Shown: one piece after another, positions 35,711 through 44,561 of the stretch | Layout of the letters: every line of letters starts with the position of its first letter | How positions within the stretch are numbered: position 1 is the first letter of the stretch | Source: Hymenobacter canadensis | Lineage (GTDB): Bacteria > Bacteroidota > Bacteroidia > Cytophagales > Hymenobacteraceae | Length of the DNA: 64,000 nucleotides | Direction: 5' to 3' | Assembly (NCBI RefSeq): GCF_027359925.1 | Contig: NZ_CP114767.1 | Span: 3,763,501-3,827,500 of the forward strand | The notes under the pieces: model-generated | Told to the model about the DNA's origin: nothing | The model's input: only the letters and a program-made list of their open reading frames with translations | The model's database searches: none | Translations under genes and position numbers: made by a program

Positions 35711-37036
35711 CTACACCGCGTCCGACAAGCTGGTGAAGGTGAAGTCGCGGATTTTCAGTGGGGGCACCATGTTGCCGCCCAGCCGCTGGGGCTTCCCGAT
35801 GGCCTCGATGTTGTTGAGCATAATCACCGGGCTTTCGTTGAAGCGCATGTTTTTGATGGGGTGCTTGATCTTGCCGTTCTCGATGTAGAACGTACCGTCG
35901 CGCGTCAGGCCCGTAACGAGCAGCGTCTGCGGGTCCACGTCGCGGATGTACCACAGGCGCGTGACGAGGATGCCTTTGGCGGTGCCTTTGATGAGGTCTT
36001 CTACGCTTTGGGTGCCGCCTTCCATCACGAAGCCGCTCGGGAAAGCCGTGGCCTGCTTCTTGTTTTTCTCGGCCCAGAAGCGCGAGTAAAACAGGTTTTT
36101 TACCACGCCTTTTTCCACCCAGTTCATGCGCTTCACGGGCAGTCCGTCGCCGTCGAACACGCGGCCGGGGGCGGTGGCGTTCAGCGGGTCGGAGTAGATG
36201 GTAATGCGCGGGTCGAACATCTTTTCACCCAGCTTATTGCCGCCCCCCTTTTTGCTCAGAAACGAGCGACCCTCATCGGCCTCACGGGCGCCCAGCGCGT
36301 AAATCAGGCGGTTCAGCATACCCTCATCCGACACCAGCGCGGCTGGCTCCAGAATCACGGTGTACTTGCCCGGCTCAATGGCCTTGGCATTCACCGAGCC
36401 CGAGGCCTTGTCGGCGGCGCGCTTGGTGAGGGCCTTGGCGTCGAACTTGGTCACATCGGTGTAGTCGGCCACGGCGTAGCCCGAGCCGGTGCCGTCGGGC
36501 GTGCGCACCGTCACCGAGAAGTCGAGGTTGGTGAGCTGCTGGTAGCCTTCGAGGCCCTTGTTGTTGCGGATAGCCGTGAAGCTGGGGCCGTCTTCGAGGT
36601 AGCCGGCAGCCGTGAGCTTACGGCCTTCGCAGAGCGCAATGCTGTCCTGCGCTACCTGGGCGCGGAAGTCGGGCGTGATGCCGGCGGTGCTGGCGGCGTA
36701 GGTGGTGGGCGTCAGGTACTGCTGCGCCCCCAGCATGGGCATGTACTCGGGGTCTTCGGGGGCGAGGCGCGCAATTTCCTCGGCCCGCTGCACGCAGCGG
36801 CGCAGGGTGGCGTCGTCGAACTGATTGCAGGTGGCCACGCCGCTGCGCTTGCCGAAGCGCGCCTCCACAGCCAGGCTCACGTTGCTCGACGAGCCGGCCG
36901 TGCTGACGTTGTTGCGGGCGTAGCGGATGTTGCCGGTGGTGCGCCCATCAAGCTGGGCCGCGCACTCATCGGCGGTGGAAAAGCCAAGCACCTTTTTCAG
37001 GATGGCCTGGGCTTCGTCTTGGGAAAGAATTGCCAT
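35711..37036 (-). CDS. TldE/PmbA-type metalloprotease subunit
   Basis: This 441-residue protein belongs to the TldD/PmbA family, in the TldE-like (non-metal-binding) subgroup. In E. coli TldD and TldE form a heterodimeric protease that unfolds and degrades small substrates such as CcdA and matures microcin B17. It has no HExxxH motif and no signal peptide. Features include AILKKVLGFSTADECAAQL near the N-terminus and the glycine-rich SFLSKKGGGNKLGEKMF, LVTRLWYIRDVDPQ and GLTRDGTFYIENGKI C-terminal segments. The ATG at 37036 is preferred; the open frame runs upstream into a palindromic repeat. It is the last gene of the cluster and is close to the copy at 41264. Confidence 0.9.
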   Translation of the reverse strand: MAILSQDEAQAILKKVLGFSTADECAAQLDGRTTGNIRYARNNVSTAGSSSNVSLAVEARFGKRSGVATCNQFDDATLRRCVQRAEEIARLAPEDPEYMPMLGAQQYLTPTTYAASTAGITPDFRAQVAQDSIALCEGRKLTAAGYLEDGPSFTAIRNNKGLEGYQQLTNLDFSVTVRTPDGTGSGYAVADYTDVTKFDAKALTKRAADKASGSVNAKAIEPGKYTVILEPAALVSDEGMLNRLIYALGAREADEGRSFLSKKGGGNKLGEKMFDPRITIYSDPLNATAPGRVFDGDGLPVKRMNWVEKGVVKNLFYSRFWAEKNKKQATAFPSGFVMEGGTQSVEDLIKGTAKGILVTRLWYIRDVDPQTLLVTGLTRDGTFYIENGKIKHPIKNMRFNESPVIMLNNIEAIGKPQRLGGNMVPPLKIRDFTFTSLSDAV

Positions 37037-37067
37037 GTGGGTTGATGTCGTTTGGATGGGATGGTAT

Positions 37068-37185
37068 GCTGCCAACAGAACGTCATTCCGAGCTTGCCGA
37101 GGAATCTCGCGTGCTGACGTTGTGATGGTAATTACCACACTAGCGAGATTCCTCGGCAAGCTCGGAATGACGTTCTGTTGGCAGC
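37068..37185. repeat. REPIN-like palindrome, ATTCC type, perfect 43-base arms
   Basis: The arms 37068-37110 and 37143-37185 are exact reverse complements over 43 bases. The 32-base spacer contains a further palindrome (GGTAATTACC). Each arm folds alone with ATTCC/GGAAT around GAGCTTGCCGA. The right arm ends 4 bases from the stop codon of the upstream TldD gene. It lies between tldD and tldE on the same strand. Confidence 0.9.
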
Positions 37186-37189
37186 TCCA

Positions 37190-38836
37190 CTAGATTTTCC
37201 GGGCCGTGTTGATGACGTTGACGCCGTTGAAGCGGGTGGTGCTGGAGCCGTGGCTCACGGCCGACACCTGCGAGGGCTGGCCCTTGCCGTCGAAGAAGGT
37301 GCCCAGGAAACGGTAGTCGGAGGCGTCGCAGGAGCCGGCGCAGGAGTTCCAGAACTCCTGGGTGTTGGCTTGGTAAGCCACATCTTCGAGCATACCCGTG
37401 ATTTTGCCTTTCTCGATGGCGTAAAACACCTTGCCGCCGAACTGGAAGTTATAGCGCTGCTGGTCGATGGAGTAGGAACCCTCGCCGGCAATGTAGATGC
37501 CCTTGTCCACCTTACTGATCATCTCGTCCACGCTCAGCTTTTCGGTGCCGGGGCGGAGGCTCACGTTGGGCATGCGCTGAAACTGCACGCTGCTCCAGGA
37601 GTCGGCGTAGCAGCAGCCGTCGGACTCGGTCTGGCCCACGATGGCCGCTTGGTCGCGGATCTTTTGGTAGTTCACCAGCTTGCCTTCTTTGATCAAATCC
37701 CACTCCTTGGTCTTCACGCCTTCGTCATCATAGCCCACGGCGCCGAGGCTGCCCGGCTGCAGCTTGTCGGCTACGATATTGACCTGCTTGGAGCCGTACG
37801 GCAGGTTCTTGGCTTTCCACTCCAGCGTGGCGAAGGAGGTGCCGGCGTAGTTGGCCTCGTAGCCCAGCACGCGGTCCAGCTCCAACGGGTGTCCCACACT
37901 TTCGTGAATCGTGAGGCCCAGGTGCGAGGGGTCGAGCACGAGGTCGTATTTGCCCGGTGTTACTGATTTGCAGGTGAGCTTTTCCTTGGCCTGCTTGGCG
38001 GCCAGGGTGGCATCTTCCAGCATGTCGTAGCGCTGCTTGTAGCCGATGACGCTGGTGCCCTGGGGGCCGGCCATCTTGTCGGCGGCCCGTGGGGTCAGGT
38101 ACTCGTAGCCCAAACCCATCGGCGAGGCCATAGCGCCGCGTGAGCGGAACTTGCCGGTGGTGCGGTCCACCACCGTCACGTCGAACGTGGGCCAGATGCG
38201 GTGGATATCCTGGTCGATGTAAGAGCCGTCGGTGCTGGCGAAATACTTCTGCTCGTTCACCTGAAACAGGGCCGAGTTGACGTAGCTGGCGCCGTTGCTA
38301 AGGGCGGCGCCGTTGGCGGCCAGCAGCAGGTCCACTTTCTCTTTCACGGGCACCTCGGCGAAGTTGCGCTCAATGGGCGTCTTCCAGCTCACCTCGCCAA
38401 AGCCGCGCTGTGGGGCCAGCTGTACGGGCTGCTTCTGCACTTTCTGGTTGGCTTTGGCAATGGCCACGGCCGTGCGGGCGGCTTCGGCCAGGCCGGCCTC
38501 GGTCACGGTGTTGGTGGAGGCAAAACCCCAGGCCCCGTTCACCAGCGCCCGCACACCCGCTCCGAAGCTCTCGGTGCTCACGATGTTCTGCACCTGCTTT
38601 TCGCGCGTGAAAACGTACTGGTTGAGGTAGCGCCCGATGCGTACGTCGGTGTAGCTGGCGCCGGCGGCTTTGGCGGCGTTGAGGGCCGCATCGGCCAGCC
38701 GCTTTTTCAGGGCCGGGTCGATGACGTCGAGCAGCTGCTCAGGCTCGACGAAGATACCGCCCATGCCCGGCAGGCTGGGGAGCAGCAGACCGCCGGCCGC
38801 CAGGCCGGTGAGTCCCACAAAATCACGTCTTTTCAA
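37190..38836 (-). CDS. TldD-type metalloprotease with Tat signal, copy 1
   Basis: This 548-residue TldD-type protease carries the zinc motif HESVGH (311-316, HExxxH), while Cys residues in NSCAGSCDASDY near the C-terminus may give the additional metal ligand. It starts with a twin-arginine signal (KRRDFVGLTGLAAGG), so it is probably exported folded, unlike E. coli TldD. The start is TTG at 38836; the same residues begin the copy at 40763 with ATG, which supports the choice. C-terminal residues GVNVINTARKI are shared by all three copies. It is the catalytic partner of a TldE-type subunit, probably the adjacent gene. Confidence 0.9.
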   Translation of the reverse strand: MKRRDFVGLTGLAAGGLLLPSLPGMGGIFVEPEQLLDVIDPALKKRLADAALNAAKAAGASYTDVRIGRYLNQYVFTREKQVQNIVSTESFGAGVRALVNGAWGFASTNTVTEAGLAEAARTAVAIAKANQKVQKQPVQLAPQRGFGEVSWKTPIERNFAEVPVKEKVDLLLAANGAALSNGASYVNSALFQVNEQKYFASTDGSYIDQDIHRIWPTFDVTVVDRTTGKFRSRGAMASPMGLGYEYLTPRAADKMAGPQGTSVIGYKQRYDMLEDATLAAKQAKEKLTCKSVTPGKYDLVLDPSHLGLTIHESVGHPLELDRVLGYEANYAGTSFATLEWKAKNLPYGSKQVNIVADKLQPGSLGAVGYDDEGVKTKEWDLIKEGKLVNYQKIRDQAAIVGQTESDGCCYADSWSSVQFQRMPNVSLRPGTEKLSVDEMISKVDKGIYIAGEGSYSIDQQRYNFQFGGKVFYAIEKGKITGMLEDVAYQANTQEFWNSCAGSCDASDYRFLGTFFDGKGQPSQVSAVSHGSSTTRFNGVNVINTARKI

Positions 38837-38944
38837 AGTGCGGAAAGGTTAGGGGGAGAAGGAATACACACGTCAGGCAATAGATGCGGCAACCGGGAGC
38901 AGGGTTGTTTGGCGCCGCCGTAATATTTGGAAAAGCTAATAAAA

Positions 38945-38972
38945 AAACCGCCCGGAAATGTCCGGGCGGTTT
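38945..38972 (-). terminator. Terminator between TldD copies 1 and 2
   Basis: The perfect 12-base stem AAACCGCCCGGA/TCCGGGCGGTTT (38945-38956 and 38961-38972), with a 4-base loop, is followed on the minus strand by a T-run (38941-38947). It would end transcription from the copy at 39111-40763. Confidence 0.8.
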
Positions 38973-38999
38973 GGTGGGTCGGCCTGAAGCGTATAAGGC

Positions 39000-39093
39000 C
39001 GTCATGCTGAGCTTGCCGAAGCATCTCTACCGCTTCGTCTAAACGACTGAGTTAGACAGAGGTAGAGATGCTTCGACTTCGCTCAGCATGACG
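39000..39093. repeat. REPIN-like palindrome, ATGCT type
   Basis: The left arm 39000-39031 and right arm 39061-39093 share CGTCATGCTGAGC and GAAGCATCTCTACC. The hairpin loops differ (GAGCTTGCCGA against GAGCGAAGTCGA). It lies between two tldD copies, 17 bases from the stop codon of copy 2. Confidence 0.85.
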
Positions 39094-39110
39094 TTCTGTG
39101 AACTGCAGCC

Positions 39111-40763
39111 TTAAATCTTCCTTGCCGTGTTGATAACGTTGACGCCGTTGAAGCGGGTGGTGGCAGAGCCGTGGCTCACGGCCGAGCTTTGCGAAGGCTG
39201 GCCTTTGCCGTCGTTGAAGAAGCCTGCCAGCCGGTAGTCGGAGGCGTCGCAGGAGCCAGCGCAGCTGTTCCAGAACTCCAGCGTGTTGGTTTGGTAAGCC
39301 ACATCCTCGAGCATGCCCGTGATTTTGCCTTTCTCGATGGCATAAAACACTTGCCCGCCGAACTGTGAGTTGTAGCGCTGCTGGTCGATGCTGAACGAGC
39401 CGTTGCCGGCAATGTAGATGCCCTTGTCCACCTTGCTCACCATGTCGTCGACGCTCATCTTGGTGGGGCTGGGGCGCAGACTCACGTTGGGCATGCGCTG
39501 GAACTGCACATCGCGCCACGACTGCGAGTAGCAGCAGCCGTCGGACTCGGTCTGGCCGACCATAGCGGCCTGGTCGCGGATTTTCTCGTAGTCCACGAGC
39601 GTGCCTTCCTTGATCAGGTCCCACTCTTTGGTTTTCACGCCCTCGTCGTCATAGCCCACGGCGCCCAGCGAGCCGGGCTGCAGCTTATCGGCCACGATGT
39701 TGACCTGCTTGGAACCGTACGGCGTGCCTTTGGCTTTCCACTCCAGCGTGGCGAAGCTGGTGCCGGCGTAGTTGGCTTCGTAGCCCAGCACGCGGTCCAG
39801 CTCCAGCGGGTGACCTACGCTTTCGTGAATGGTCAGGCCGAGGTGATGCGGGTCGAGCACGAGGTCGTACTTGCCGGGCGTCACGCTCTTGGCGGTCAGC
39901 TTCTGCTTTACCTGCTTGGTGGCGCGTACCACGTCTTCCAGGATGTCGTAGGAGTTGCGGTAGCCGAACACGTCGGACCCTTCGGGGCCGGCAATCTTGT
40001 CTTCCGCTTTGGGCGTCAGGTACTCGTAGCCCAGGCCCATGGGCGCGCTCAACGACTGCCGCGAGCGGAACTTGCCCGAAGCCCGGTCGATGGCTGTGAC
40101 GCCGAACGTGGGCCAGATGCGGTGCACGTCCTGGTCGATATAGGAGCCGTCGGTGCTGGCGAAGTACTTCTGCTCGTTCACCTGAAACAGCACCGAATTC
40201 ACGAACGAAGCGCCGTTGTCGAGGGCCTTGGCGTTGGCGTTCAACAGCAGATCCACCTTGTCTTTGATGGGCACGGCGAAGGCGTTCTGCTGAATCGGGG
40301 CCTTCCAGCTCACCTCGCCAAACCCGCGCTGCGGCGCCAGCTGCACGGGCTGCTTCTGCACCTTGGAGTTGGCTTTGGCAATCTGCACGGCTAGCTGCGC
40401 GGCCTTGGCCATGCCGGTCTCGGTCACGATGTTCGTGGAGGCAAAGCCCCAGGTGCCGTTGGCAATGACGCGAATACCGGCGCCGTAGCTCTCGGAGCTG
40501 ACGATGTTCTGCACCTGCTTTTCGCGGGTAAACACGCCTTGGTTCAGATAGCGCCCGATGCGCACGTCGGCATACGTAGCCCCTGCCGATTTCGCGGCAT
40601 TCAGGGCCGCATCCGACAGCCGCTTCTTAATGGCCGGGTCGTCGGCCGCATCCAGCAAACGGAGCGGATCTACGGTCAGGCCTTCGCCGAAACCGGGAAT
40701 GGAAGGCAGCAGCAAACCGCCAGTAGCCAGGCCCGTAAGGCCTACAAAATCACGTCTTTTCAT
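39111..40763 (-). CDS. TldD-type metalloprotease with Tat signal, copy 2
   Basis: This 550-residue protein is very similar along its whole length to the copies at 37190 and 42744. Twin-arginine start MKRRDFVGLTGLATGGLLLP (ATG at 40763), metal motif HESVGH near residue 314, and NSCAGSCDASDYRLAGFF near the C-terminus. It differs from copy 1 mainly in the loop after the signal peptide (GEGLTVDPLRLLDAADDPA). It has no adjacent tldE of its own: the gene before it on the transcription path is a GIY-YIG gene on the opposite strand. Its partner subunit may be encoded at 41264 or 35711. Confidence 0.9.
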   Translation of the reverse strand: MKRRDFVGLTGLATGGLLLPSIPGFGEGLTVDPLRLLDAADDPAIKKRLSDAALNAAKSAGATYADVRIGRYLNQGVFTREKQVQNIVSSESYGAGIRVIANGTWGFASTNIVTETGMAKAAQLAVQIAKANSKVQKQPVQLAPQRGFGEVSWKAPIQQNAFAVPIKDKVDLLLNANAKALDNGASFVNSVLFQVNEQKYFASTDGSYIDQDVHRIWPTFGVTAIDRASGKFRSRQSLSAPMGLGYEYLTPKAEDKIAGPEGSDVFGYRNSYDILEDVVRATKQVKQKLTAKSVTPGKYDLVLDPHHLGLTIHESVGHPLELDRVLGYEANYAGTSFATLEWKAKGTPYGSKQVNIVADKLQPGSLGAVGYDDEGVKTKEWDLIKEGTLVDYEKIRDQAAMVGQTESDGCCYSQSWRDVQFQRMPNVSLRPSPTKMSVDDMVSKVDKGIYIAGNGSFSIDQQRYNSQFGGQVFYAIEKGKITGMLEDVAYQTNTLEFWNSCAGSCDASDYRLAGFFNDGKGQPSQSSAVSHGSATTRFNGVNVINTARKI

Positions 40764-40776
40764 GGGAGGAAGGATA

Positions 40777-40857
40777 CTGTCATTCCGACGAAGGAGGAAT
40801 CTGAGTTATACTTGGGAGTACGATTTTACCCAGATTCCTCCTCCGTCGGAAGAACAA
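40777..40857. repeat. REPIN-like palindrome, ATTCC type, upstream of GIY-YIG gene
   Basis: The left arm 40777-40806 (GTCATTCCGACGAAGGAGGA then ATCTGAGT) and right arm 40828-40857 (CCCAGATTCCTCCTCCGTCG then GAAGAACAAG) form an inverted pair; the outermost bases of the right arm have diverged. The right arm ends 19 bases before the GIY-YIG start codon. Confidence 0.85.
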
Positions 40858-40876
40858 GATTCGAAAGCAAAAATCG

Positions 40877-41179
40877 ATGCGCTACCACCACTATTTCGTT
40901 TACATCGTCACTAATCCCAAGCGTACCGTTCTTTACATCGGCGTCACCAACGACCTGGCCAGAAGACTGGAGCAGCACATCGAAAACGAAGGCCGGCAAC
41001 ACACTTTCGCCGGTCGCTACTTCTGCAATCTGCTGATGTATTGGGAAGCCTTCGGCGACATCAAACAGGCAATTGCGCGGGAGAAAGAAATCAAGGGGTG
41101 GCGACGCGAAAAAAAGGATGCGCTGATAGCTGCACATAACCCGGAGTGGCGGGATCTGCACTCCGATATCATCGGGTAA
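40877..41179 (+). CDS. Small GIY-YIG nuclease, bracketed by palindromes
   Basis: This 100-residue single-domain GIY-YIG endonuclease has VYI (GIY position) in YFVYIVTNPKRTVLYIGVTN, YIG in LYIGVTND, the catalytic Arg region LARRLEQH, and the metal-binding Glu in AIAREKEIKGWRR followed by HNPEWRDL. It is of the standalone type common in Bacteroidota, often in many copies per genome. The cellular role of this type is not established. Here it is on the opposite strand to its neighbours, between palindromic elements of one sequence type, starting 19 bases after one and ending 1 base before the other. It interrupts a TldE-TldD gene order. Confidence 0.92.
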   Translation: MRYHHYFVYIVTNPKRTVLYIGVTNDLARRLEQHIENEGRQHTFAGRYFCNLLMYWEAFGDIKQAIAREKEIKGWRREKKDALIAAHNPEWRDLHSDIIG

Positions 41180-41180
41180 T

Positions 41181-41259
41181 TGTCATTCCGACGAAGGAGG
41201 AATCTGAGTAAAAACGTTCAACAGTTTCACCCAGATTCCTCGCTCCGCTCGGAATGACA
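41181..41259. repeat. REPIN-like palindrome, ATTCC type, downstream of GIY-YIG gene
   Basis: The left arm 41181-41209 is identical to that of the element at 40777 over GTCATTCCGACGAAGGAGGA plus ATCTGAGT. The right arm 41229-41259 has a different hairpin loop (TCGCTCCGCTC). It starts 1 base after the GIY-YIG stop codon and ends 4 bases before the stop of the convergent TldE gene. Confidence 0.88.
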
Positions 41260-41263
41260 GTGC

Positions 41264-42598
41264 TTACACCGCGTCCGACAGGCTCGTGAACGTGAAGTCG
41301 CGGATTTTCAGCGGGGGCACGAGGTTGCCACCCACGCGGACGGGCTTGCCGATGGCTTCCAGGTTGTTGAGCATGATGATCGGCGACTCGTTGAAGCGGA
41401 AGTTCTTCACCGGGTGCTTGATGCGGCCGTTTTCGATGTAGAACGTTCCGTCGCGGGTGAGGCCGGTGTAGAGCAGTGTCTGTGGATCGACGGGGCGGAT
41501 GTACCACAGGCGCGTCACGAGGATGCCTTTGGCGGTGCCTTTGATCATGTCCTGCACGCTTTGGGTGCCGCCTTCCATCACCCAGCCATCGGGGCGGGGC
41601 AGGTCGGGAATGCCGGCTTTCTGGGCCCAGAACCGCGACGAGTACAGGTTTTTCACTACGCCCTTTTCAATCCAGGTGGTTTTCTTCTGGGCGCGGCCAT
41701 CGCCGGAGAAACCGAGGCTGGCAATTTCGGGGTTGCTCGGGTCGGAGTAGATGGTTACCCGCTCATCAAAGAGCTTTTCGCCCTTCTTGTTACCGCCACC
41801 TTTTTTGCTCAGAAACGAGCGGCCTTCGTCGGCGCTGCGGGCGTCCATGGCGCTCATCAGGGCCTGCAGCAGCGAGGCGTCGGTGTTGGCGACGAGAGCA
41901 GCCGGCTCCAGAATCACGGTGTATTTGCCGGGCTCCAGGGCCTTGGCATTGCGCGACATGGCGGCCTTGTCGGCGGCTACGCGGGTGAGGGCGGCGGCAT
42001 CGAACTTGCCAGAGTCGTTGTAGTCGGCGGTGGCGTAGCCCGAGCCGGTGCCGTCGGGCGTGCGCACCGTGATGCTGAACTCCAGGTTAGTGAGCTGCTG
42101 GTAGGCTTCCAGGCCCTTGCTGTTGCGCTTGGCAATGAAGGTGGCGCCGTCGTTGAGGAAGGCCGCCGACGAAAGCTTCTTCTCGTCGCAGATTTTCATG
42201 CTGGCTCCCACCTGCTGGGCGCGGTAGTCGGGCGTAATGCCGGCCGTGCTGGCCGCGTATGACTTGGGCGCGCCCACGTACTGCTGGGCACCCAGCAAAG
42301 GCATGTACTCGGGGCTTTCGGGGGCGAGGCGCGCAATTTCTTCGGCCCGCTGCACGCAACGGCGCAGGGTGGCATCGTCGAACTCGTTGCAGGTGGCCAC
42401 GCCGCTGCGCTTGCCGAAGCGCGCTTCCACGGCCAAGCTCACGTTATCCACGGCGCCGCTGGTGCTGATGGAATTGCGGGCCGAACGAACGTTGCCGCCG
42501 GTTTCGCCGGTGAGCGTGGCTTCACACTCGTCGGCGGTAGCAAAGCCCAGTACCTTTTTCAGGATAGCCTGCGCCTCGTCTTTGGAAAGAATTGCCAT
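41264..42598 (-). CDS. TldE/PmbA-type metalloprotease subunit, second copy
   Basis: This 444-residue paralogue of the gene at 35711 has the same start (MAILSKDEAQAILKKVLGF) and end (PPLKIRDFTFTSLSDAV). There is no HExxxH motif and no signal peptide. Compared with the first copy, the central part (about 230-330) is more divergent. It probably pairs with a TldD-type subunit, most likely the copy at 42744 that precedes it on the strand. The ATG at 42598 is chosen by similarity with the first copy; the open frame continues upstream into a palindrome. Confidence 0.9.
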   Translation of the reverse strand: MAILSKDEAQAILKKVLGFATADECEATLTGETGGNVRSARNSISTSGAVDNVSLAVEARFGKRSGVATCNEFDDATLRRCVQRAEEIARLAPESPEYMPLLGAQQYVGAPKSYAASTAGITPDYRAQQVGASMKICDEKKLSSAAFLNDGATFIAKRNSKGLEAYQQLTNLEFSITVRTPDGTGSGYATADYNDSGKFDAAALTRVAADKAAMSRNAKALEPGKYTVILEPAALVANTDASLLQALMSAMDARSADEGRSFLSKKGGGNKKGEKLFDERVTIYSDPSNPEIASLGFSGDGRAQKKTTWIEKGVVKNLYSSRFWAQKAGIPDLPRPDGWVMEGGTQSVQDMIKGTAKGILVTRLWYIRPVDPQTLLYTGLTRDGTFYIENGRIKHPVKNFRFNESPIIMLNNLEAIGKPVRVGGNLVPPLKIRDFTFTSLSDAV

Positions 42599-42635
42599 AT
42601 GGTTGATGTGCTGATGTTGGATGAGTGGATGGGCC

Positions 42636-42733
42636 AGCAGACCGTCATGCAGAGCGCAGCGAAGCATCTCGCCAGCGTAGTAATTCTACCACACTAGCGA
42701 GATTCCTCGCGCTGCTCGGAATGACGTTCTGCT
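42636..42733. repeat. Chimeric REPIN-like palindrome (ATGCA arm and ATTCC arm)
   Basis: The arms 42636-42672 and 42697-42733 pair over 37 bases with nine mismatches. The left arm stem is ATGC/GCAT, the right arm stem ATTCC/GGAAT, so each arm is self-complementary but the two arms mispair at the stem positions. It lies between the tldD copy 3 and the second tldE. Confidence 0.85.
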
Positions 42734-42743
42734 GAGAGTCGCA

Positions 42744-44390
42744 TTATACTTTCCGGGCCGTATTGATGACGTTGACGCCGTTGAAGCGGGTGGTGCTGGA
42801 GCCGTGGCTCACGGCCGACACCTGTGAGGGCTGGCCCTTGCCGTCGAAGAACGAGCCGAACAGCCGGTAGTCCGACTGGTCGCAGATGGCGTTACAGCTA
42901 TTCCAGAACTCCTGGGTGTTGGCCTGGTAGGCCACGTCCTCAATCATGCCGGCTATTTTGCCTTTCTCGATGGCGTAGAACACGGTGCCGCCGAACTGGA
43001 AGTTGTAGCGCTGCTGGTCGATGCTGAACGAGCCGCGGCCGGCAATGTAGATGCCTTTTTCCACCCCGCGTACCATGTCGTCCACGCTCATTTGCGAGGT
43101 GCCCGGCTTGAGGCTGATGTTGGCCATGCGCTGGAACTGCACATCCTGCCACGACTGCGCGTAGCAGCACCCGTCGGAGTGGTCCTGGCCGACGATGGCG
43201 GCCTGGTCGCGGATCTTTTGGTAGTCCACGAGCTTGCCTTCCTTGATGATGTCCCACTGGCCGGTTTTCACGCCCTCGTCGTCGTAGCCCACGGCGCCCA
43301 GCGAGCCGGGCTGCGTCTTGTCGGCCACGATATTGACCAGCTTGGAGCCGTACGGGGCGTTCTTAGCTTTCCACTCCAGCGTGGCGAAGCTGGTGCCGGC
43401 GTAGTTGGCTTCGTAGCCCAGCACGCGGTCCAGCTCGGTGGCGTGCCCGATGCTTTCGTGAATCGTGAGGCCCAGGTGGTTGGGGTCAAGCACGAGGTCG
43501 TACTTGCCGGGTGTCACGCTTTTGGCCGTGAGCTTTTCCTTGGCCTGCTTGGCGGCCAGGGCGGCATCTTCCAGGATGTCGTAGGAGTTGCGGTAGCCTA
43601 CCAGGCCGGTGCCGGCGGGGCCGTTGATGCGGTCAGCGGCCTTGGGCGTGAGGTACTCGTAGCCGAGGCCCATAGGCGCGCTCAGGGCCTCGCGGGTGCG
43701 AAACTTGCCGGTGCTGCGGTCGATGGCCGTGGCGCTGAACGTGGGCCAGATGCGGTGGATGTCCTGGTCGATGTAGGAGCCGTCGGTGCTGGCGAAATAC
43801 TTCTGCTCGTTGATCTGGAACAGCGACGAATTCACGAACGACGCGCCGTTGTCGAGGGCCTTGGCGTTGGCTGCCAGCAGCAATTCCACCTTCTCCTTTA
43901 CGGGCACCTCGAAAGAGTTCTTCTCGATGGGCGTCTTCCAGCTTACCTCGCCATAGCCGTTTTGCGGCGCCAGCTTCACCTGGTCTTTCTGCACCTTGGC
44001 ATTGGCTTTGGCAATCTGCACGGCCAGCTGTGCGGCCTTGGCCATACCGGCCTCGGTTACGGTGTTGGTGGAAGCAAAGCCCCAGGTGCCGTTGGCAATA
44101 ACCCGGATACCGGCCCCGTAGCTTTCCCCGCTGGCAATGTTCTGCACCTGCTTTTCGCGGGTGAAGATGCTCTGGTTGAGGTAGCGCCCGATGCGCACGT
44201 CGGCGTAGGTGGCGCCGGCCGATTTGGCCGCGTTCAGGGCCGCATCCGCCAGCCGCTTCTTGATGGCCGGGTCTACGGTTTCCAGCAGCCGCAGCGGATC
44301 AACGGGCGTGGCGCTCAAGCCCGGAATGGCAGGCAGAAACAGGGCGCCGGTTGCCAGGCCGGTGAGGCCCACAAATTCGCGTCTTTTCAA
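42744..44390 (-). CDS. TldD-type metalloprotease with Tat signal, copy 3
   Basis: This 548-residue third copy starts with LKRREFVGLTGLATGALFLP, again a twin-arginine signal. It uses TTG at 44390, judged by alignment with the copy at 40763. The metal motif is HESIGH, and the C-terminal Cys pair is in NSCNAICDQSDYRLFG. GVNVINTARKV ends the protein. An open frame upstream to 44555 is not supported because its residues have no counterpart in the other copies. It is the first gene of the cluster, followed by tldE copy 2. Confidence 0.9.
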   Translation of the reverse strand: MKRREFVGLTGLATGALFLPAIPGLSATPVDPLRLLETVDPAIKKRLADAALNAAKSAGATYADVRIGRYLNQSIFTREKQVQNIASGESYGAGIRVIANGTWGFASTNTVTEAGMAKAAQLAVQIAKANAKVQKDQVKLAPQNGYGEVSWKTPIEKNSFEVPVKEKVELLLAANAKALDNGASFVNSSLFQINEQKYFASTDGSYIDQDIHRIWPTFSATAIDRSTGKFRTREALSAPMGLGYEYLTPKAADRINGPAGTGLVGYRNSYDILEDAALAAKQAKEKLTAKSVTPGKYDLVLDPNHLGLTIHESIGHATELDRVLGYEANYAGTSFATLEWKAKNAPYGSKLVNIVADKTQPGSLGAVGYDDEGVKTGQWDIIKEGKLVDYQKIRDQAAIVGQDHSDGCCYAQSWQDVQFQRMANISLKPGTSQMSVDDMVRGVEKGIYIAGRGSFSIDQQRYNFQFGGTVFYAIEKGKIAGMIEDVAYQANTQEFWNSCNAICDQSDYRLFGSFFDGKGQPSQVSAVSHGSSTTRFNGVNVINTARKV

Positions 44391-44561
44391 AAGAGTAGAG
44401 GTTTGGTGATGGAGAGTGGGAAGGGCAGGATGAGCAGAACCTAGGATTATCTGCGACTTAAGGACGTTGATGATAGGTGGAGGCTGCACAGGCCCAAAAC
44501 CATCACTGGAGTTGTTGCGCTGCGGCGGCTGCCTGCCGGCATTCAGGCCTGACAATATTCA

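Follow-up and report, generated by a model that had tools for sequence, protein, structure and literature searches.

A small GIY-YIG nuclease gene paired with CGTC-like REP palindromes, a candidate REP-processing enzyme

In a stretch of 64,000 nucleotides of the Hymenobacter canadensis genome (contig NZ_CP114767.1; here called the window), a gene for a small GIY-YIG nuclease lies between two inverted pairs of repetitive extragenic palindromic (REP) sequences. The original prediction, made from the sequence of the window, held that gene and palindromes form a minimal mobile unit and that the nuclease acts on the hairpins, either moving them or being carried by them. We found the same pairing in many other genomes, with the palindrome type following the clade of the protein, and propose that the gene is probably a processing nuclease of these palindromes.

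The REPIN-gene-REPIN unit of H. canadensis

The locus contains the following features, in window coordinates (REPIN, REP doublet forming a hairpin).

40778..41259, plus strand: whole unit (REPIN, GIY-YIG gene, REPIN), with outward TGTC tags at both ends
40778..40857, no strand assigned: left REPIN-like inverted pair, with REP halves at 40780-40802 (+) and 40832-40854 (-), the tag of the inner half being degenerate
40877..41179, plus strand: small GIY-YIG nuclease gene, 100 amino acids, catalytic-type residues intact
41181..41259, no strand assigned: right REPIN-like inverted pair, with REP halves at 41183-41205 (+) and 41233-41257 (-)
39111..40763, minus strand: tldD-like gene, flanking and outside the unit, with a PmbA/TldD domain
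41264..42592, minus strand: tldE/pmbA-like gene, flanking and outside the unit, with a PmbA/TldD domain; the list of open reading frames (ORFs) extends it to 42667

The gene starts about 20 nt past the left pair, and the right pair begins 1 nt past the stop codon, in agreement with the 19 bases and 1 base first reported. The left arms of the two pairs (40778-40806 and 41181-41209) agree in all 29 nt, where at least 28 had been claimed. The gene is on the plus strand and both neighbors, each with a PmbA/TldD domain, are on the minus strand, so the unit is indeed inverted relative to them and splits a tldE-tldD order. The two palindromes had also been said to match; both are inverted pairs, but the right half of the left pair carries the degenerate tag AAGAACA in place of AATGACA. 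Folded as single-stranded DNA and compared with shuffled sequences, the left and right pairs gave z values of -6.1 and -7.5, respectively. They were identified neither as terminator hairpins, since the region's two terminator-like matches lie elsewhere, nor as a known RNA family, the search returning just three sub-threshold matches to microRNA precursors.

The REP palindromes of proteobacteria are spread by RAYT (REP-associated tyrosine transposase) enzymes of the HUH/Tyr family. RAYT is the known enzyme of the GTAG-tagged superfamily. For the CGTC-tagged REPs, which include RPE-4 and RPE-6 of Rickettsia and dRS3 of Neisseria (the latter equated with CGTC-1), a dedicated transposase is apparently missing according to the survey in which this superfamily was defined (Di Nocera et al. 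2013, PMC3733652). Each half of the window palindromes reads TGTC-AT-TCC-GA...GGA-AT, with a tag first, then an AT stem start, a core of three bases, GA and the bases that pair with the core. The H. canadensis genome contains 150 such ATTCC-type halves (77 on the plus strand and 73 on the minus strand), many of them in inverted pairs, and the reversed-pattern control gave 0; when up to 3 mismatches were allowed, the 23-nt core was found 23 times, again with 0 in the reversed control. As two inverted REPs with many dispersed copies, the window palindromes are REPINs. In TGTC-AT they have the unpaired tag (CGTC, TGTC or CCTC) and the AT stem start of the CGTC superfamily, and they share its inverted dimers and high copy number as described in PMC3733652. 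The 8-9 bp stem, 4-5 nt loop and CCA tail of CGTC families 1-4 are absent from the window palindromes, which have a shorter outer stem of about 5 bp, an asymmetric middle and CTGA past the stem. Because the 8-9 bp stem and the CCA tail are missing, we class them as CGTC-like and not as family members. Many of the alphaproteobacterial copies that adjoin the gene, e.g., in Azospirillum lipoferum, and those of Neisseria do fit the published CGTC form.

The product of the ORF at 40877-41179 scored 60.7 bits against the Pfam GIY-YIG domain PF01541 (cut-off, 22.6) and lacks the HUH/Y1 domain of RAYT (PF01797). An alignment of 40 proteins showed Y9, Y20, G22, R30, H34, E69 and N88 to be invariant; the conserved Tyr, Tyr-Gly, Arg, His, Glu and Asn presumably have catalytic roles. 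By sequence the protein is a member of the GIY-YIG nuclease superfamily, and DNA cleavage is predicted. A search of NCBIfam gave no match above a curated cut-off. The nearest solved structures by sequence, also among the nearest by fold, were the UPF0213/YhbQ-type proteins 1zg2 and 1ywl, which likewise consist of a single GIY-YIG domain. Closest folds further included Slx1, as well as I-TevI and the UvrC N-domain, and no family outside the known GIY-YIG structures stood out. These three are larger proteins with other substrates (branched DNA for Slx1, judging from structure entry titles), and fold likeness alone shows no function. The ratio of nonsynonymous to synonymous substitutions was 0.03-0.15 in the 5 computable pairs of 27, the remaining pairs being saturated, which is limited evidence of purifying selection on the gene.

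The window contains another ATTCC-type REPIN at 37083-37170 and a single half at 42700-42724, both between tldD/tldE-like genes of an array of TldE-like and TldD-like paralogues that spans approximately 35714-44447. In most of 45 genomes of the genus the TldE protein had two or three matches, fragments included. For tldE and some other ORFs, the longest reading begins within REP sequence (MLRCALHD..), so their start codons are doubtful.

Association of the gene with palindromes across genomes

The flanks of 32 related genes carried palindromes in most cases. Their cores differ and their plan is common, GTCAT-xyz-GA...x'y'z'-A(T/C); it was derived from these 32 genes, which are included in the set scanned afterwards. 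Chance was rejected as the origin of the REP halves so detected: 283 were found in 831 kb around the family loci as opposed to 2 in the reversed sequence, 327 as opposed to 4 in 462 kb around loci of named genomes, and, with a wider motif, 84 as opposed to 5 in 222 kb of alphaproteobacterial stretches.

The family set consisted of 92 loci, 66 from the same genus (H. canadensis included), found among the matches listed, and 26 from other genera that were picked by rank; gene copies with internal stops were kept in the association counts. A REP half lay within 250 bp of the gene at 79 of the 92 loci and on both sides at 54, compared with 50 and 4 of 335 control ORFs from the same stretches. Fisher's test for the enrichment on both sides gave 2e-27 in the genus and 5e-12 in other genera, and among length-matched control ORFs (100-200 amino acids) only 6 of 99 had a REP. 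The enrichment by which the pairing was to be checked is thus present. A second draw from 45 genomes of the genus, overlapping the first, gave 65 of 79 genes with a REP on any side and 39 with REPs on both. The typical unit measured 465 bp from outer tag to outer tag (median; 375-725, n=46), with the nearest REP at a median of 42 bp upstream of the start and 28 bp downstream of the stop.

A set of named genomes comprised the best 80 of at least 571 loci, and its 15 Hymenobacteraceae overlap the family set. REPs occurred on any side of 13 of these 15 genes (controls, 3/16), of 39 of the 48 other Bacteroidota-like genes (controls, 14/79; the unclassified locus L191 is counted here) and of 15 of the 17 genes outside Bacteroidota (controls, 0/29). 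The last group includes Alphaproteobacteria (5), Verrucomicrobia, Clostridia, Chloroflexi, Syntrophales and Magasanikbacteria, and one of its loci (L197) is shared with the 30 alphaproteobacterial loci described below. Outward tags (+ .. -) bounded 67 of 102 two-sided loci.

The family alignment matched 88 of 192 alphaproteobacterial genomes, divergent small GIY-YIG genes included. Taking the best match of 30 among these 88 genomes, we found a CGTC-type REP at 24 of the 30 loci and REPs on both sides at 12, and many of the REPs beside the gene had the textbook CGTC...ATCCA form. Longer stretches were analyzed for 20 loci (19 of the 30 and another row of genome G230), chosen before their flanks were seen: REPs were present at all 20 and on both sides at 10, as opposed to 15 and 0 of 114 control genes. 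The alphaproteobacterial counts are less blind because a long-stem motif was added once flanks had been viewed; the controls were scanned with the same motif.

Among 12 named replicons, 9 had a REP beside the gene by motif. S. meliloti and Novosphingobium, with tag-variant palindromes recognized by eye alone, were scored as misses, and in R. tumorigenes neither the motif scan nor inspection by eye found a palindrome beside the gene. In Neisseria gonorrhoeae the gene adjoins ATTCCCGCG..CGGGAAT repeats, which we take to be dRS3. A REPIN-gene-REPIN unit separates sufB from sufC in A. lipoferum. On plasmid p1 of Planktothrix agardhii (L423), a REP-flanked GIY-YIG gene is located in a defense region, with a type IIL restriction-modification gene on one side and drmA of DISARM on the other. 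Three replicons labeled as plasmids (NZ_CP119140.1, NZ_CP119142.1 and NZ_AP026896.1; Neisseria gonorrhoeae, 2.17 Mb, and Aeromonas caviae, 4.94 Mb) are chromosome-sized and probably mislabeled.

Palindrome type, protein clade and REP copy number

Divergent small GIY-YIG genes of Alphaproteobacteria were REP-flanked in only 1 of 17 cases (drawn from 16 chosen stretches, with genome G223 contributing four genes), genes for long GIY-YIG proteins in only 1 of 6, and Y1_Tnp (RAYT-type) genes of the genus in 0 of 12. Thus, REP pairing is a property of one subfamily and not of GIY-YIG proteins at large, and the first of these counts would set the subfamily apart from UPF0213/YhbQ-type proteins, if the divergent genes are of that type, which is our reading and not the result of a family test.

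Both flanks carried the same core at 52 of 54 two-sided family loci and at 41 of 48 two-sided loci of the named set. On a tree of 205 proteins (175 labeled), built on 94 columns and with many forks open, the core changed 44 times as opposed to a mean of 118 after shuffling (minimum, 108). With one row per genomic context (74 rows) there were 29 changes versus 53 shuffled (minimum of 200 shuffles, 48), and with named-genome rows only (60) there were 30 versus 39 (minimum, 35). All 18 ATTGC-flanked proteins, one of them from Chloroflexi, fell into one clade. Palindrome type follows protein clade even across unrelated genomic sites. Furthermore, 13 of 40 gene-bearing genomes had two or more genes of differing flank type, and a palindrome type had one gene per genome in 53 of 59 cases and two in the other 6. 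That the pairing of GIY-YIG gene and palindromes is real, widespread and specific we regard as practically certain.

The abundance of REPs was compared with the presence of the gene in 45 genomes of the genus, the enzyme clade being assigned by the flank type together with the sequence of the protein. Broken copies were scored as present (G134 for ATTGC; G144 for ATTCC; G101, G135 and G138 for ATCCT). The median number of ATTGC halves was 56 with an ATTGC-clade gene (n=10) and 2 without (n=35; p=6e-5), the corresponding values being 50 (n=6) and 4 (n=39; p=1e-3) for ATTCC and 91 (n=13) and 12 (n=32; p=3e-3) for ATCCT; each of the six non-cognate combinations gave p >= 0.1. The result was weaker when broken genes were scored as absent, with cognate p values of 1e-4, 2e-3 and 6e-3 for ATTGC, ATTCC and ATCCT and one non-cognate p value of 0.02, for the number of ATTCC repeats in relation to the ATCCT-clade gene. 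As judged by eye in G026 and G107, inverted pairs have a nearly constant total length within a type, approximately 150-160 bp for ATTGC and 85-97 bp for ATCCT, which suggests that the pair and not the half is the spreading unit.

RAYT is disfavored as the mover of these REPs. A Y1_Tnp match was missing from 13 of the 45 genomes, some of them rich in REPs, and the 12 Y1_Tnp loci of the genus, as noted above, carry none.

Occupied sites, proposed mechanism and alternatives

The 3' side of tldE was compared in 30 genomes, H. canadensis included. Five had the unit, with 500-535 bp to tldD, and 25 did not. By strict motif none of the 25 had an ATTCC palindrome at the site; ATGCT-type REPs were present in three, and in a further two a related palindrome was recognized by eye. 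In seven genomes without the unit (G067, G143, G126, G128, G123, G131 and G129) the tldE-tldD gap is only 35-92 bp.

Carrier and non-carrier sites were both present in Azospirillum, Sphingobium and Shinella. No unit lies between sufB and sufC in Azospirillum oryzae, A. ramasamyi or strain B510 (94-95% identical), and no palindrome was found there by motif; the same was true of the gene-less site of Shinella H4-D48. In gene-less Sphingobium TomTYG64, one complete palindrome, GTCACCCCGGG..CCCGGGGTGAC, occupies the exact site of REP-gene-REP elsewhere (L435, approximately 1180-1215, versus L419); it is a single fused palindrome carrying a tag at each end, as would be expected from either recombination between the two terminal REPs or an uninvaded target. 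TomTYG74 has a related imperfect palindrome at the site by eye, and TomTYG72 has none. No target-site duplication was recognizable by eye at three sites, and in a neighborhood search for Rhizobium CIAT894, none of the 25 records listed out of 59 was a clean unoccupied site. In blastn comparisons between loci (best 60 of 338 pairs), the L133/L161 match ended within 0-1 nt of the outward tags on both sides; most listed pairs end away from the tags, and conservation of the REPs could by itself account for where the matches end. Gene copies were mostly one per palindrome type among the genes analyzed.

These observations support the claim of a minimal mobile unit only in part. Outward tags at two-thirds of the two-sided loci, the many genomic places and the coexistence of carrier and non-carrier sites speak for it, and the shared tldE site in 5 of 30 genomes and the single gene in 53 of 59 type-genome cases speak against it. 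Because the site is shared and there is one gene per type, the gene looks like a resident enzyme that acts on REPs in trans, as RAYT does, and does not copy itself; the REP-gene-REP unit is apparently kept by selection. Of the two roles first suggested for the nuclease, action on the hairpins is in line with the functional pairing to which the enrichment near palindromes points, and transport by them as a mobile unit is backed in part. We consider it rather probable that the gene encodes a dedicated, palindrome-type-specific nuclease that processes or moves CGTC-like REPs and REPINs and is thus a RAYT counterpart with a GIY-YIG domain.

In the mechanism we propose, an inverted REP pair would fold into a hairpin or cruciform when the DNA is single-stranded during replication or when the pair is extruded. 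The small GIY-YIG enzyme would recognize the hairpin core, i.e., the three bases past GTCAT and their partners, and would nick the DNA at the unpaired (C/T)GTC tag or close to it. The nicked or released hairpin could then be copied or re-inserted elsewhere through host replication and repair. REPINs would be non-autonomous derivatives, and REP-gene-REP would be the gene-bearing form, usually present once per type per genome.

Two results weigh against a tight link between enzyme and REPs. Genomes G123, G026 and G128 are REP-rich for some types and lack the gene, and a kinship-corrected test on a TldE species tree (41 genomes) was underpowered, having too few independent contrasts. Evidently, REPs outlast their enzyme. 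G123 has many REPs of three types, with no match to a small GIY-YIG gene of the subfamily or to a Y1 transposase.

The system resembles the RAYT/REPtron system, described in part in PMC3733652, in several respects: the gene is flanked by cognate palindromes that are abundant and dispersed elsewhere in the genome, enzyme and REP are co-specific, REPs form inverted pairs, and several types coexist, each with its own gene. It differs in the enzyme, which is GIY-YIG here and HUH/Y1 there, in the tag, which is (C/T)GTC as opposed to GTAG, and in that the Y1_Tnp loci of the genus are without such REPs.

The main rival reading is that the gene is a free-standing homing endonuclease that parasitizes REPINs, cutting those of its type and being copied into the loop by repair, with no part in REP spreading. 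GIY-YIG is a known homing-endonuclease fold (I-TevI), and both the co-specificity and the copy-number correlation are equally expected of such a gene. The 67 two-sided loci where the gene sits inside an outward-tagged pair, as if placed in a REPIN loop, and the single palindrome at the exact site in TomTYG64 also agree with it. However, the target REPs left empty number in the tens to hundreds, and the gene occurs once or, in 6 of 59 cases, twice per type, and some genes, as in the window and in A. lipoferum, lie between two complete REPINs and not inside one. Homing into REPINs is an unlikely account of the pairing.

Still less likely is a passive association, in which REPs mark intergenic sites that tolerate the insertion of horizontally acquired small genes, or gather at this gene as terminators or dampers of expression. 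These REP types are frequent in intergenic space, as the 50 of 335 control genes show; yet length-matched ORFs, divergent small GIY-YIG genes and Y1_Tnp genes have little or no such association (6/99, 1/17 and 0/12), and neither a type that follows the clade across different sites nor differing types within one genome are predicted. This reading is already disfavored. The idea that the nuclease is a host control factor, a guard and not a propagator that limits hairpins by cutting extruded cruciforms or aiding repair and excision, draws on the few gene copies, the limited signs of purifying selection and the likeness to structure-selective Slx1, but is very improbable; presence of the enzyme goes with more REPs of its type, not fewer.

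The pairing had been put forward as not known to have been described, and no paper linking GIY-YIG to REPs or REPINs was found by title or abstract among the open-access papers listed, a search that left subscription journals and bioRxiv out of scope and does not prove absence. PMC3733652, PMC12306157 and PMC6006769 do not contain the term "GIY." The one paper found to mention both GIY-YIG and repetitive extragenic palindromes (PMC9465073) only names RayT and a GIY-YIG gene, each on its own, among the clade-specific genes of Moraxella.

REPs are widespread repeats in bacterial genomes, and the gene described here is a strong candidate for the enzyme, so far missing, by which the CGTC-like ones are spread or processed. 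More tentatively, and as a possibility to which we do not commit ourselves, small GIY-YIG nucleases may drive pan-bacterial mobile palindromes independently of HUH enzymes, with REP-giy-REP units as parents, CGTC-like REPs and REPINs (dRS3 and those of Alphaproteobacteria and Bacteroidota) as derivatives and a few core bases setting the specificity. With a single-domain nuclease of about 100 amino acids, encoded by one or a few genes in each genome beside palindromes matched to its clade, the question of the CGTC transposase becomes directly testable. If the proposed role is correct, it would explain many genes annotated as "GIY-YIG nuclease family protein" between palindromes and would provide a family of small nucleases with natural hairpin specificities.
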